From a virus, in IMG/VR virus record IMGVR_UViG_3300008116_000046, positions 1 through 58,460 of that record: 58,460 nt of DNA; one strand, 5' to 3'. Positions within the stretch are counted from its first letter, which is position 1. The number at the start of each line of letters is the position of its first letter. Positions 8,356 through 28,330 of the stretch are shown here, piece by piece. The position numbers and the translations under genes were made by a program. The notes beneath the pieces are model-generated. The model was given only the letters and a program-made list of their open reading frames with translations, did not search any database and was not told the origin of the DNA.

Positions 8356-8958
8356 ATGTTTCCCCCAATTCTTGTCGAGGTTGTTTCTTTTTTGAATGGC
8401 ATAAATGTCGATATCAGTGAAAATCATGAAGATGGGCGTGTGAATAGTATTCATGATGAAAAAACTGTTATTGATATTCTTGAAGAAAAATATGGAAAAG
8501 AAAATGTCATTAGACCTAAAGTAAGGGATTGGTGGGATGTAAAACTTTTTGGTTATGTTACAAACATCAAATCTTCCAAGTTTGGATCTGCTGCAGATAA
8601 TTTCACTTCTAAAGCATCTGTTGTTTATGCTCTGACTGATCTCGATGAGAGTGAGGTTAAAAAACATACTTGGAAGCAATTTGAATCTGCATTGAAGAAT
8701 CATAGTAATGCTGACAATAATAGAGATTATTACATTCTAGCTCTTAACAAAGTTACAAATGAGGTACATCTTGCTTCTTTGAAGACTTTGGCTAAGATTA
8801 CTTCTAATGGTAGTAATCTGCTTTTTCAAATTGAGTGGCGTCGGAATACCAAACCTGTTTATCGTACTCATCGACAAGCATATGAGTTTCTGGTAGAATG
8901 CTACAAACAATCCGTTCGTAAAAAGATCAGCGCCCATGATGGATTTGAGTCGCTTTGA
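8356..8958 (+). CDS. Putative restriction-endonuclease-like protein (200 aa)
   Basis: Unrecognised by full family, but the layout suggests a PD-(D/E)xK nuclease: a helical N-terminus with DEKTVIDILEEKYGKENVIR (about 35-53), then DWWDVKLFGYVTNIKSSKFG (58-77), in which D61 and K72 sit as the D...xK pair of such nucleases with N70 in place of the usual acid. The next stretch (ASVVYALTDLDESE) and the C-terminal FQIEWRRNTKPVYRTH are like type II restriction enzymes. The gene overlaps the downstream DNA methyltransferase by 23 bases, a typical restriction-modification arrangement. Alternative: a nuclease-like protein that only binds DNA. Confidence is moderate because the motif is degenerate. Confidence 0.5.
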   Translation: MFPPILVEVVSFLNGINVDISENHEDGRVNSIHDEKTVIDILEEKYGKENVIRPKVRDWWDVKLFGYVTNIKSSKFGSAADNFTSKASVVYALTDLDESEVKKHTWKQFESALKNHSNADNNRDYYILALNKVTNEVHLASLKTLAKITSNGSNLLFQIEWRRNTKPVYRTHRQAYEFLVECYKQSVRKKISAHDGFESL

Positions 8959-9721
8959 GTTGCAACTAGGTAATTGTCTGGAACTCATGAAAGAGATTCC
9001 AGACAATTCTATTGATTTTATCTGTTGCGATCCTCCTTATGGGACTACAAGCATCAAATGGGATGAGGTAATTGACTTCCATAAAATGTGGGAACAATAT
9101 GAAAGAATTATCAAACCAAAAGGAATAGTTTGTTTATTTGGTTCTCAACCATTTTCTGCACAACTTATTTGTTCTAAAATTGATTGGTTTAGATATGAAT
9201 TAGTTTGGAACAAAAACAAATGTGGTTCTCCTGGTCTTGCAAAACACAGACCTATGAAAACGCACGAAAATATCCTTATTTTTTCAAAAAAACCTGGTGG
9301 AACTTATAATCCACAAATGGAAAGGGGAGAACCATATTCAAGAACATCAAAAAACCCAGAAGGATATGTTGGAAAAAAGAATGATCACAATTATGGTCTA
9401 AAACCAAGAAAATCTTTCACAAATGAAGGGACAAGATATCCAAAATCAATCTTAAACATCTCTAGAGATTTTAGTGCTCAACAACAGGTTCATCCAACAC
9501 AAAAACCAGTTCCTCTTCTTGAATGGTTGATTAAAACATATTCAAATGAAAATGAGACTGTATTAGATAATTGTATGGGAAGTGGAAGTTGTGGAGTTGC
9601 TGCAATAAATCTTAACCGCAAATTTATTGGAATAGAAATGGATCCCAATTATTTCAAAGTTTCTGAAGATAGGATAAAAATTGCATCAAATGCGAAACCT
9701 TTAGATAGTTTTTTTGAATGA
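8936..9721 (+). CDS. DNA methyltransferase, beta class (N6-adenine or N4-cytosine)
   Basis: 261 residues in beta-class order: catalytic motif IV CDPPYGT at 31-37 near the N-terminus, FSKKPGGTYNP at about 116-126, HPTQKP at 186-191, then SAM-binding motif I DNCMGSGSCG at 211-220 and IGIEMD at 231-236. All key parts are present, so the enzyme should be active; it transfers methyl from S-adenosylmethionine to adenine or cytosine amino groups. The region between (VGKKNDHNYGLKPRKSFTNE) is probably the target-recognition part. ATG at 8936 or 8939. Overlap with the nuclease-like gene suggests joint expression; alone it would protect phage DNA against host restriction. Confidence 0.88.
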   Translation: MMDLSRFELQLGNCLELMKEIPDNSIDFICCDPPYGTTSIKWDEVIDFHKMWEQYERIIKPKGIVCLFGSQPFSAQLICSKIDWFRYELVWNKNKCGSPGLAKHRPMKTHENILIFSKKPGGTYNPQMERGEPYSRTSKNPEGYVGKKNDHNYGLKPRKSFTNEGTRYPKSILNISRDFSAQQQVHPTQKPVPLLEWLIKTYSNENETVLDNCMGSGSCGVAAINLNRKFIGIEMDPNYFKVSEDRIKIASNAKPLDSFFE

Positions 9722-22165: not shown

Positions 22166-22299
22166 TGAACGATTCAACACTTGATCTTTTCTGCCAGCAT
22201 GAAGATGAAAATTATGCTGATGAATATGCAATGGAGATTGAAAGGAAATGTGCTGAATTAGAAATTACTGTCGATTATTACTTGATGGAGTTTATTTAA
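22165..22299 (+). CDS. Small acidic protein (44 aa), last gene of the run
   Basis: MNDSTLDLFCQHEDENYADE then YAMEIERKCAELEITVDYYL. Acidic helix with three Cys/His. Ends directly before the long gene-free region. Confidence 0.55.
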   Translation: MNDSTLDLFCQHEDENYADEYAMEIERKCAELEITVDYYLMEFI

Positions 22300-22375
22300 G
22301 TTGTTATATTAAATGTATTAAAAAACATATGTAAGTGTTTTGAATTGCTGATAAATATCTGATTCTTATCACTTA

Positions 22376-22425: not shown

Positions 22426-22654
22426 TGCTGGTTTTTGTAGTGATCTTGGGCTGTATTCTATCACAACACCACTGTTTTGTCAATACCCCCCGGACACTCC
22501 AAAAACTGGCACACCCTGATAAGAATCACAAACGCTCTGAGACACCTCTATATGCCTCCACAGCACGCTTATAAACACTCTCAGGGGTGAGACTACCGAA
22601 TAGCACTGATTCGCTCTTATTTTAGTTAGGGTTTCATAACACAAAATGAAACCT

Positions 22655-22662
22655 TATAAATA
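22655..22662 (+). promoter_or_regulatory. T4-type late promoter (TATAAATA)
   Basis: Exact TATAAATA directly after the GGTTTCAT/ATGAAACC hairpin. No gene starts for more than 600 bases downstream, so it would transcribe the 72-bp array. Confidence 0.6.
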
Positions 22663-22934
22663 AATCATCTATTTGAATTCATTAGAGCAGCTCTTGAACT
22701 TTCCTACGGGACCAAAAAGGTAACAATCTGACAGAAGACAATAGAACTTACACATTATGAGAGATTGATTATTATCAAAGAGGGAGTTAGAACACGGTCT
22801 CCGGCACAATAAAATCGTTAAGATGATTATATCTTAGAAATCCAAACAGCGGCACATTCGAATAAATCAGCATTCTCTGGATGATAAGTTTTCTATGCAA
22901 AACTTTGAAATTTGTGAGAAGGTTTTGTTGTGTT

Positions 22935-23250
22935 TATTCGTTATTAGATAAGACACCGTACAGAACCATCAGAATCAAACAGACAATGAGATTACATCTC
23001 AGAACTTGTTCGTGATTAGATAAGATTCGTACAGAGATTTGATAATGCGAACTGATGAGAATTAAGAACTCATAAGTTTGTTCGTGATTAGATAAGATTC
23101 GTATAGAGCATAACAATATAACACTGCTGTTATATTCTAATCTGATAATTCATTCGTGTTTAGATAAGATTCGTATTGGAGAATTGGTTGTATAAGTCTT
23201 CCGCGCACTTACAGATAGAAAGTATTCGTGTATAATTAAGATTCGTTGTA
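22935..23250. repeat. Array of five boxes at exact 72-bp spacing with interposed hairpins
   Basis: Boxes with consensus TTCGTGATTAGATAAGATTC begin at 22937, 23009, 23081, 23153 and 23225: four spacings of exactly 72. The first is degenerate at its 3' half (GACACC for GATTCG) and the last at its middle. Between them the sequence differs, but each interval holds an inverted repeat: TGAGAT/ATCTCA (22987-23001), ATGAG/CTCAT (23055-23073), AATATAACA/TGTTATATT (23115-23136) and TAAGT/ACTTA (23193-23211). The minus strand reads a short peptide motif (RILSNHE) in one frame but stops interrupt it, so it is not coding. Function unknown: candidate tandem structured RNA or iteron-like protein-binding array. 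Confidence 0.8.
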
Positions 23251-23329
23251 GGGAATAACTTGACGGGTAGAGTAGGGTCTGGTAGAATTCAACAGTAGAG
23301 TTTATTCGTTCCTCCGTTCTTTCTCTCTT

Positions 23330-23497
23330 ATGGCAACTGCTTCTCTCACAGCACAAAAGAATAAGTATCGCATCACGTTAGAACTCAACGTGAATGAAGA
23401 TTTTAATCCACATCAGATTAACTGGAACAAACTCTTTGAACTTGATCGTAATGAACAGGTGAAGAGTTATGTAGAAGATCTCAACGTGCGTTGGTAA
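23330..23497 (+). CDS. Small protein between two repeat arrays (55 aa)
   Basis: MATASLTAQKNKYRITLELN then VNEDFNPHQINWNKLFELDR, ending VEDLNVRW. It begins with a mixed strand (KYRITLELNVNEDF) and then a helix, a layout like a small protein that pairs with nucleic acid or another subunit. The ATG follows a partial array box (TTTATTCGTT, 23301-23310) and the pyrimidine-rich leader CTCCGTTCTTTCTCTCTT. Its position alone between the two arrays is striking. No family recognised. Confidence 0.6.
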   Translation: MATASLTAQKNKYRITLELNVNEDFNPHQINWNKLFELDRNEQVKSYVEDLNVRW

Positions 23498-23990
23498 TTA
23501 GAATACTCTTCAAATCGCCCTAAGTGTATTATACTCAGCGTCAGTAAGGTACATCGCCTGATAGATGTTTCGTTTATTATTATTACTTTGTCTGATTGTT
23601 TATATCACTTGGGGCAACTTAATTCTTTATAGTTATTATTGTTCGTCGTTAATTGGCAGCAGTTCGTATAAAGAATAGGCAGTTCTTTATGTATAAGTAG
23701 GGTTTTTGTTGGGAGTTAGTGTAAAGAACTGCGTTGTTTTATAGTAATAACGCAGTGATTGGGGGCAGTTAGTATAAACAATGACGAATAATGATAGTTA
23801 TTCGTTGTCAGTTGTTTATTCGTTATAGCAGTTATTATGTTTTATTGTTAATTGTTTATATTTTGCGTTGCCCCCCGTTATGAAAAATCGATAAGTCCCT
23901 AACCTACAGTGTATGTCTTTTTCGACCTCTATCTCACTCTCATAAAAAAAAAAATTTCCCAGAAAAAAATGGCACCAAAAAGCAAATAAA
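23498..23990. other. Gene-free segment around the 53-bp array
   Basis: No coding frame is convincing. Its middle carries the 53-bp array described separately; both flanks are T/A-rich and simple (runs such as TTATTATTACTT). The right end has AAAAAAAAAAATTT and ATGGCACCAAAAAGC, a seven-codon frame that I do not count as a gene. Confidence 0.6.
23622..23830. repeat. Array of three boxes at 53-bp spacing with competing hairpins
   Basis: AGTTCGTATAAAGAA (23661), AGTTAGTGTAAAGAA (23714) and AGTTAGTATAAACAA (23767) are spaced 53 and 53 bases apart, each after a TTGG/GGGC-like string. ATTCTTTATA 23622-23631 pairs with TATAAAGAAT 23667-23676; ATAAAGAA 23668-23675 also pairs with TTCTTTAT 23683-23690; GCAGTTCTTT 23679-23688 also pairs with AAAGAACTGC 23723-23732; ACTGCGTT 23728-23735 also pairs with AACGCAGT 23749-23756; ACAA+CGAATAA 23778-23791 pairs with TTATTCGTTGT 23798-23808. 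Each successive hairpin uses bases of the one before, so they exclude each other. Confidence 0.75.
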
Positions 23991-26017: not shown

Positions 26018-26419
26018 ATGCCTTTAGAACGAGTAAGTAGTGGTTTTAAAGATATAAGTATGTCATTTCAGGCTAATCCTCTGAACAATGACCTTATTGG
26101 AATTAAAAATGAAACTGCAATTGCTCGTTCTATAAGAAATATTGTTTTCACTCAACCTGGAGAAAAATTTTTTAATCCCTTTTTTGGTTCTCAAGTAAAA
26201 AGATCGTTATTTGAAAACTTTGATGATCTTACATCTACTACAATTAAAGATGAAATAGAAAATTCTATTCGAAATTATGAACCAAGAGTCGAATTAATTG
26301 ATGTTAGTGCTGTCCCAGATTATGATAATAATACTTTTAACGTAACAATAATCTATAGAATTATTGGTGCAGATGTACAACCACAACAGTTAGAATTTGT
26401 ATTACTGCCTTCTAGATAA
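26018..26419 (+). CDS. gp25: Baseplate wedge protein gp25
   Basis: 133 residues. MPLERVSSGFKDISMSFQAN then LIGIKNETAIARSIRNIVFT and QPGEKFFNPFFGSQVKRSLF: the 'D.....N.p..gDl....ne.AI.qSi.NIl.T.pGEr...P.fGs.v...LFE' pattern is the gp25-like/GPW family. T4 gp25 is about 130 aa, so it is full length. It builds the baseplate wedge near the sheath start. Followed without a gap by gp6. Confidence 0.92.
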   Translation: MPLERVSSGFKDISMSFQANPLNNDLIGIKNETAIARSIRNIVFTQPGEKFFNPFFGSQVKRSLFENFDDLTSTTIKDEIENSIRNYEPRVELIDVSAVPDYDNNTFNVTIIYRIIGADVQPQQLEFVLLPSR

Positions 26420-28330
26420 ATGACATTAACAAATTTTTCAAATTTAGATTTCGATCAGATCAAGACAACACTAAAAGATTATTTGAGATCAAACTCAAAT
26501 TTTACTGACTATAATTTTGAAGGATCTAATTTATCTACAATTTTAGATGTATTAGCATATAATACCTATATTACTTCATATAATGCAAATATGGTTGCAA
26601 ATGAGGTTTTTATAGATAGTGCGACATTAAGAGAAAATGTTGTTGCTCTTGCGAGAAACATTGGATATGTTCCAAGATCCAAAAAATCAGCAAGAGCAAC
26701 AGTAAGTTTTTTTGTAGATCTTTCAAACTCGAATATACAAAGTTCTACAATAACTCTTAAAAAAGGAATAGTATCTTCAAGTTCAAACACATTTTCAAAC
26801 CAATCATTTGTATTTTCAATCTTAGAGAATATTACAAAACCAATTTTTAACGGCATTGCATCTTTTGAGGATATTAAAATCTATGAAGGTTCATTGATTA
26901 CTACTAACTTTACATATAACACTAATAATTTAAATCAAAGATTTATTTTACCCAATCCTGGCATTGATACTGATTTGCTTTCTGTCTCTGTGGATAGAGA
27001 TGGTGTCAAATCAAATTATATGCTTCATAAAAATATACTAGACATAGATAATAATTCCAAAGTATTTTTCATACAAGAAGTAGAAGATGAAAGATATGAA
27101 ATAATTTTTGGCGATGGTGTATTTGGAGAATCTCTGCAAAATGGAGATCAAATAGAAGTTTCTTATATTGTATCCAATGGAGAATCTGGAAATGGAATAT
27201 CTCAATTTTCTTTTTCTGGAACATTGTCGTCTTCAAATAACCAAAATATTACCTCTGGAATTTCTTTATTATCAACTGGGCTAATTTCGTCTGGTGGAGA
27301 GGATATAGAAGAGATTGAATCCATTAAAAAATACTCAGGAAGGATATACGCATCTCAAAATAGAGCCGTAACATCAAATGATTACGAATCTCTTATTAAA
27401 ACTGTAGTATATCCAGAAACAGAATCTATTTCTGTTTTCGGTGGAGAAGAATTGATTCCCCCTCAGTATGGAAAAGTCTTCATTAGTATTAAGCCAAGGA
27501 CTGGAGATTTTCTACCAAATTTAATCAAAGAAAATATAAAATTAAAGTTAAAGCAATATTCTGTTGCAGGAATAGTTCCCGAAATTCTAGATTTAAAATA
27601 TCTTTACGTAGAGACAGATTCTAAAATTTATTATAATCCAAATTTATCTTCAGGGTCAGAACAGGTATTAACTGCAATTAATTATAATGTAAATAAGTAT
27701 GCAAAATCCACTGAGTTGAATAAGTATGGGGCGAGATTTAAATATAGTAAATTTTTAAAAATTATAGATGACAGTCATAGTGCAATTACATCTAACATTA
27801 CAAAAATTTCTATTCGTAGGGATTTAAGAATAGTAGCAAATTCTTTTGCAACATATTCAATTGGATTCGGCAATCAATTTCATATTTCGGATCTGAACGG
27901 TTTCAATATTAAATCTACTGCATTTAGAATATCTGGGGTACAAGAAGACCTCTACTTATCAGACATACCAAACACTGATAGGGAAACAGGGATCATATTC
28001 TTCTTTAGTCTGCCAAATAAATCCTCAACTAACCCAACTATTGTTAGGAGAAGTGCTGGAACTATAGATTATAAAAAAGGTATAATTAATTTAAATCCAT
28101 TAAATATAATATCTACTGAAAAAATAATAAATGGACAACCGACTATTCAAATATCTGCAATTCCAAAATCAAATGATGTAATTGGATTGCAGGATTTATA
28201 TTTGCAACTAGATATTAATAGCAGTTTATTTGAAATGGTAGTTGATGAAATTTCTTCTGGAGCAGATCCTTCAGCATCAAACTATATTGTATCTTCAAGC
28301 TATGGTAATGGAAATTTAGTAAGATCTTAA
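26420..28330 (+). CDS. gp6: Baseplate wedge protein gp6
   Basis: 636 residues, close to T4 gp6 (660). Starts MTLTNFSNLDFDQIKTTLKD then YLRSNSNFTDYNFEGSNLST, and contains ILDVLAYNTYITSYNANMVA, the conserved 'lldlLayNt.yn..y.n...NE.fldsA..R.nvv..a..lGY.P.s...A' of gp6. The end (about residues 330-440, YAESISVFGGEELIPPQYGK) also fits. It is a core part of the baseplate wedge. Starts immediately after gp25 TAA, so it may rely on coupled translation. Confidence 0.9.
   Translation: MTLTNFSNLDFDQIKTTLKDYLRSNSNFTDYNFEGSNLSTILDVLAYNTYITSYNANMVANEVFIDSATLRENVVALARNIGYVPRSKKSARATVSFFVDLSNSNIQSSTITLKKGIVSSSSNTFSNQSFVFSILENITKPIFNGIASFEDIKIYEGSLITTNFTYNTNNLNQRFILPNPGIDTDLLSVSVDRDGVKSNYMLHKNILDIDNNSKVFFIQEVEDERYEIIFGDGVFGESLQNGDQIEVSYIVSNGESGNGISQFSFSGTLSSSNNQNITSGISLLSTGLISSGGEDIEEIESIKKYSGRIYASQNRAVTSNDYESLIKTVVYPETESISVFGGEELIPPQYGKVFISIKPRTGDFLPNLIKENIKLKLKQYSVAGIVPEILDLKYLYVETDSKIYYNPNLSSGSEQVLTAINYNVNKYAKSTELNKYGARFKYSKFLKIIDDSHSAITSNITKISIRRDLRIVANSFATYSIGFGNQFHISDLNGFNIKSTAFRISGVQEDLYLSDIPNTDRETGIIFFFSLPNKSSTNPTIVRRSAGTIDYKKGIINLNPLNIISTEKIINGQPTIQISAIPKSNDVIGLQDLYLQLDINSSLFEMVVDEISSGADPSASNYIVSSSYGNGNLVRS

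Follow-up and report, generated by a model that had tools for sequence, protein, structure and literature searches.

The window analysed here is the whole 58,460-nucleotide stretch of IMG/VR record IMGVR_UViG_3300008116_000046 (positions 1-58,460), and coordinates are window positions unless another record is named. Judged by its gene order (a glycosyltransferase-like gene, small genes, gp25, and gp6, as in Synechococcus phage S-SM2 of the Kyanoviridae), the window is part of a T4-like cyanomyovirus genome. Megablast against isolates gave short matches only (S-PM2 and others), so this phage has no close isolate. Our subject is an array of five short boxes lying directly upstream of a 55-aa gene, together with a predicted promoter, P1, in its last box:

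22937-22959, plus strand: box 1, degenerate (TTCGTTATTAGATAAGACACCGTAC), placed by lag identity and comparison to the consensus
23009-23031, plus strand: box 2, TTCGTGATTAGATAAGATTCGTA, the consensus
23081-23103, plus strand: box 3, the consensus
23153-23175, plus strand: box 4, one mismatch (TTCGTGTTTAG...)
23225-23247, plus strand: terminal box, TTCGTGTATAATTAAGATTCGTT, holding the predicted -10 hexamer of P1 with TTCGT on either side
23208-23236, plus strand: predicted promoter P1, CTTACA-17-TATAAT, based on conservation across relatives
23330-23497, plus strand: 55-aa gene (phrog_12516), always downstream of the array

An evenly spaced array of asymmetric boxes

The boxes start at 22937+72n, and all four spacings are 72. 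Boxes 2 and 3 are identical to the consensus TTCGTGATTAGATAAGATTCGTA, whereas box 4 has one mismatch, box 5 five, and box 1 six. Self-identity of the sequence is 0.54 at lag 72 vs. 0.22-0.33 at all other lags from 60 to 89. The box pattern (≤3 mismatches) occurs three times in the window and never in 100 dinucleotide shuffles, and TTCGT is found 15 times in the array region (0.56 expected). Positions, self-identity, and shuffles thus confirm the five boxes at exact 72-base steps reported in a preliminary description of this DNA. Each box is linear and asymmetric, with two TTCGT words, always 17-18 bp apart, and TTAGATA between them.

To find relatives, IMG/VR was scanned with the 16-base box core (100 DNA stretches, about twenty of them carrying arrays) and with a degenerate pattern (45 stretches, among them further array lineages). 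A gene-anchored survey through the downstream 55-aa gene was used to find variant boxes and other word arrays. Related sequences are designated by L or G numbers; as they come from related phages, counts of them are not counts of independent events. A chain finder listed 32 non-identical arrays in IMG/VR contigs, all at one locus of T4-like cyanophages, so homologous arrays do exist in related phages. In every array checked, the same 55-aa gene lies directly downstream. The box was confined to a single array, in one orientation, in each of eight records of 43-156 kb.

Spacing is nearly uniform inside each array. Over all arrays, 72 occurs 65 times, 69 17 times, 70 11 times, 71 eight times, and 73 twice. 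Lineages with 72-bp steps have five boxes, sometimes four; elsewhere the series run 69-70-69, four times 69, three times 70 and then 71, 71-71, 70-71, 72-69, and 73-72. Loss of the 72-bp spacing in close relatives, which the preliminary description held would count against the array, was not seen: close relatives retain exactly 72 bp, and only more distant ones have 69-71 or 73. The gene-anchored survey added variant boxes, namely TTCGTGATTAATAAGTCTTCGTA every 69-70 bp in L242 and six copies of TTCGTTATTAGATAAGATTTCGTA in L244.

Between orthologous 72-nt units of L001 and L007, two lineages that are only distantly related, box identity was 0.89 and spacer identity 0.41, where shuffled sequence gives about 0.30. 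Spacer lengths were nevertheless equal in four of four. With identity this close to chance, equal length means that the length is constrained and the spacer sequence nearly free.

In marine relatives the locus and the gene are kept and the array is absent; the locus there consists of a compact divergent promoter pair. Searches for the box in 84,980 prokaryote genomes, for the box array in the DNA of phage isolates, and among plasmid origins gave no match. A host transcription-factor or chromosomal site was rejected, since the box is absent from those prokaryote genomes. In the literature searched, such an array was found nowhere described.

A promoter in register with the array

No terminal box is a plain repeat of the others: almost all lineages have TTCGT(G/T)TATAAT there, in register with the array, so that the predicted -10 of P1 occupies the place of ATTAGAT in ordinary boxes, flanked by a TTCGT word on either side in most of them. 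A -35 lies 17 nt upstream, as TTGACA in L010, L197, L199, L244, and L245, and TTGACT in L238. It is TTTACA or CTTACA, with a 17-nt spacer, in the window, L209, L213, and L214, and a poor match in the L224 group and L235. By these motifs, the array ends in a sigma70-type promoter whose -10 is built into the last box. Two more putative promoters and a late-promoter-like box flank the array:

23260-23288, plus strand: predicted promoter P2, TTGACG-17-TAGAAT, also present in array-less relatives at about -58 to -71
22455-22483, minus strand: predicted sigma70-type promoter, TTGACA-17-TAGAAT, conserved
22655-22662, plus strand: TATAAATA, late-promoter-like, with a conserved non-coding block after it at 22683-22745

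A scan for TTGAC/TATAAT alone is weak (14 found vs. 11.9 expected), and the predictions of P1 and P2 are supported by conservation across relatives, not by scan counts. Marine relatives have a minus-strand sigma70 promoter at about -133 and P2 at about -58; in the phages with the array, it sits between these two. The minus-strand promoter at 22455-22483, a strong one by its motifs, has no gene to serve on that strand; most relatives, marine isolates among them, have kept it, which suggests an antisense or primer RNA.

The TATAAATA box that the preliminary description had placed upstream is indeed there; its three copies in 58 kb are below the chance mean of 6.85. The non-coding stretch that follows it (window 22655-22745; L197 6320-6480) is conserved as GAGCAGCTCTTGAACTT..CTACGGGACC..GGTAACAATCTGACAG. 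In relatives, a hairpin (GAACAGGGTTTAA..TTTCCCGATGTGCC) comes after this block, and one of its pairs shows a compensatory change from G-C to A-T. A further conserved non-coding stretch, GAGGGAGTTAGAACACGGTCTCCGGCACAATAAAATCGTTA, is found at 22780-22845 and in L205 and L198.

Different words at the same position

In L252-L256, the gene-anchored survey found no TTCGT box; upstream of the same gene there are 14 copies of CTAGATTC-like words, one of them between the -35 and -10 of TTGACA/TTGACC-17-TAACAT/TATACT. The copies of this CTAGATTC/CGAGATTC array are irregularly spaced at 10-46 bp (L253 2190-2480; L256 2160-2450). The isolate S-SRM01 has ATCTCGACGAG repeats at the same locus, one inside TTGCAT-17-TATAAT; they lie upstream of and within a small ORF (L188, 3750-3970). 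Three different words at the same position, each with a promoter-internal copy, argue that this DNA binds a regulator and that the specificity changes from lineage to lineage. We regard this as our strongest argument, and word replacement at a fixed locus also argues against a conserved RNA.

Further features lie downstream of the 55-aa gene:

23659-23781, plus strand: second array, GCAGTTAGTATAAAGAA at 23659, 23712, and 23765, 53 bp apart
23784-23805, no strand assigned: invariant palindrome ACGAATAA-N6-TTATTCGT, with inverted TTCGT words
26018-26419: baseplate wedge protein (phrog_261)
26420-28330: large neighbour of the baseplate wedge gene

Many relatives have three GCAGTTAGTATAAAGAA copies exactly 53 bp apart; the distance is 73 in L245 and L250, and the series 53, 53, 73, 73 in L244. 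Distances of 53 and 73 come near to five and seven turns and so suggest helical phasing in this array; the 69-70 spacings of the upstream array do not simply fit it. Near the palindrome, which is likewise conserved in many relatives, downstream of the GCAGTTAGTATAAAGAA array, an inverted partner of the box is present. A long-range pairing with TTGTTTATATTTTGCGTTGC near the second array is conserved, without real covariation.

The 55-aa protein matched no Pfam family and no PDB fold; its predicted structure has a pLDDT of 81 and a pTM of 0.52. In the early-gene part of the window, a DNA methylase (PF01555, E 5e-34) is encoded at 8936-9721.

Competing explanations

The preliminary description had favoured a tandem structured RNA with preserved pairing, and this was not supported. 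The inverted repeat it noted in every interval is present (longest stems 6, 5, 9, and 5), but mostly as expected of AT-rich DNA: stems of at least 5 occur in 74% of 78 distinct spacers vs. 56% of dinucleotide shuffles, a slight excess. RNAalifold on 85 distinct units found no consensus pair (0.0) and no covariation, and single units fold barely better than shuffled sequence (mean z -0.58 on the plus and -0.33 on the minus strand). Against Rfam, nothing matched at the gathering threshold, and a relaxed E-value gave only chance-level matches to unrelated families. A small stem within the box (GATA-N7-TAT), seen by eye in the unit alignment, is compensatory in one lineage of first units and broken elsewhere; we do not claim it. 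The array could still act as RNA of another kind, a linear-box sponge for an RNA-binding protein or a small RNA. Its strand-specific orientation relative to the gene, the excess of spacer inverted repeats, and the same-sense promoters upstream of it (TATAAATA, and sigma70 promoters in L087 and L202) agree with this. However, a linear RNA motif explains neither the uniform spacing nor the in-register -10 hexamer of the last box, and we consider an RNA role of either kind improbable.

A protein-coding repeat was rejected, as stops occur in all frames across relatives and spacings of 70, 71, and 73 exist. A degenerate CRISPR-like mini-array, with repeat and spacer of about 36 each, would account for the period of 72 and for the conservation of a segment of some 36 nt. 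Yet only the central 24 nt of the repeat are conserved, phages share orthologous spacers at corresponding positions, inherited rather than acquired, no cas genes were found among the nearby proteins searched, and the box is missing from the prokaryote genomes mentioned above. With inherited spacers and degenerate repeat edges, we rejected this reading as scarcely credible. A packaging (pac-like), recombination, or other DNA-metabolism site would fit one array per record in one orientation. It leaves the in-register promoter unexplained, and the terminase genes are far off (gp16/gp17 about 31-37 kb away in S-SM2); the packaging site proposed in the preliminary description found no support. To our knowledge, T4-type headful packaging uses no such array, and we hold this whole group of explanations to be very improbable.

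A replication origin is the main rival reading. The array would then be its initiator-binding part, with iteron-like sites at which an initiator or a helicase loader would bind. The adjoining stretch at 22275-22350 ranks among the most AT-rich 2-5% of the window, and the divergent promoter pair, with its conserved minus-strand sigma70 member, could supply primer RNA. T4 origins offer a comparison for such promoter-derived primers, and origin iterons are lineage-specific, which also speaks for an origin. Taking TTTTCCACA as the cyanobacterial DnaA box, exact copies cluster at the locus in S-SM2, G001/L216, L233, L241, L251, L247, and L257. In several relatives they occur two or three together a short way past the minus-strand promoter, and hardly anywhere else in those loci. 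The 190-kb S-SM2 genome has three exact boxes, two of them here and 21 bp apart. The positions of such 21-bp pairs are 58063 and 58084 in S-SM2 and 36400 and 36421 in G001 (L169 record), the densest cluster of each record. The prediction of one theta origin in Syn9 (PMC2984593) counts for this reading too.

Against it, the window has no DnaA box within one mismatch in 1.3 kb, L218 and L224 carry the array yet lack DnaA boxes, and marine relatives that retain locus and gene lack the array. The detrended GC-skew minimum lies elsewhere (121 kb in S-SM2, with the locus at 58 kb), and there is no turning point at the locus. We also know of no iteron initiator gene in T4-like phages. Some lineages may have an origin at this locus. 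These data do not link the array itself to one, and as an initiator-binding array it is a possible but doubtful candidate.

Discussion

We read the array as operator-type DNA with a promoter built into its last site, an interpretation to which we give about even confidence and which we place ahead of an initiator array. Because the words and the even spacing are kept while the intervening DNA changed almost completely, a row of protein docking sites is suggested rather than a folded RNA. As at an operator, a conserved linear site is repeated at a promoter that it overlaps, with TATAAT in register in the terminal box. The rival idea in the preliminary description, an iteron-like array loading a protein, is supported in the main (the box is linear, asymmetric, and invariant, the spacing uniform, the locus single, and the last copy embedded in a promoter), but loading on one DNA face was not established, as some lineages have 69-70 bp.

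In the proposed mechanism, the array would be a cis-acting DNA element of direct, asymmetric sites for one sequence-specific DNA-binding protein. These sites, about seven helical turns apart, would lead into the early, host-sigma70-type promoter P1. The protein would fill them cooperatively and, by covering the -10 in the last site, shut off or time P1; control would extend to the 55-aa gene and anything read through. We infer binding, cooperativity, repression over activation, and a phage-encoded protein, and transcripts from the array locus are likewise presumed.

Several observations weigh against this reading. The -35 of P1 is poor in some lineages (ATCATA, GATACT), and that would suit activation more than repression. 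L237 has TATAAG as the hexamer, and the last box of L198 runs into the late-promoter-like TATAAATA. L087 and L202 have strong sigma70 promoters upstream of their arrays, and given these, transcription probably runs through the array as well. At 10.5 bp per turn, spacings of 69-70 do not make whole turns. Finally, a Pfam/PHROG scan of 20 window ORFs upstream matched a DNA methylase, a helicase, and a Toprim-like protein, and no transcription regulator.

Known systems share parts of this arrangement. In the operators and stoperators of Cluster A mycobacteriophages, many asymmetric sites for one phage protein, the L5 gp71-type repressor, also serve promoter control (PMC9283540, PMC6550527). Those sites are spread genome-wide in temperate phages, whereas here there is one even array at one locus in a T4-like family considered lytic, and the 20 window ORFs scanned included no repressor gene. 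Dispersal of the stoperator type was not seen in the eight records of 43-156 kb, where the only sites were those of the array. Plasmid rep iteron origins, which have initiator sites in a promoter and iterons usually about 21-22 bp apart, are similar in their direct asymmetric repeats, lineage-specific words, and one copy in the promoter. They differ from the 69-73 bp found here, and the neighbour gene, without known initiator fold, is also present in array-less phages. In lambdoid late promoters, the Q-protein binding element is a single, phage-specific word. It resembles our boxes in lying inside the promoter and differing by lineage, but here there is an array of 4-6 sites and no Q homologue was seen.

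The late promoter of cyanomyoviruses is NATAAATA (PMC2984593). The L198 box that runs into TATAAATA recalls such T4/cyanomyovirus late promoters, whereas most lineages here have TATAAT, a 17-nt spacer, and a TTGACA-like -35, that is, the sigma70 type. Cyanomyoviruses are without the MotA and AsiA of T4 (PMC2984593).

More speculatively, the locus might be a nucleoprotein switch of freshwater T4-like cyanophages. The upstream array of about 72 bp and the downstream array of 53 bp would flank one small gene and together build a complex, specific to the phage, for initiation or shut-off; early transcription might thereby be coupled to the start of replication. The recognition words of the switch would turn over wholesale from lineage to lineage, with spacing, promoter register, and locus fixed. 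We give this only tentative credence; if true, such a switch would be previously undescribed.

That the spacing stayed even while the spacers were almost wholly replaced points to a protein complex able to gauge length along the DNA. With DnaA boxes at this locus, the idea of a replication start there can be put to the test. Moreover, a conserved cis-element with a built-in promoter and quickly changing words would offer a handle on the timing of early and middle transcription in cyanomyoviruses.
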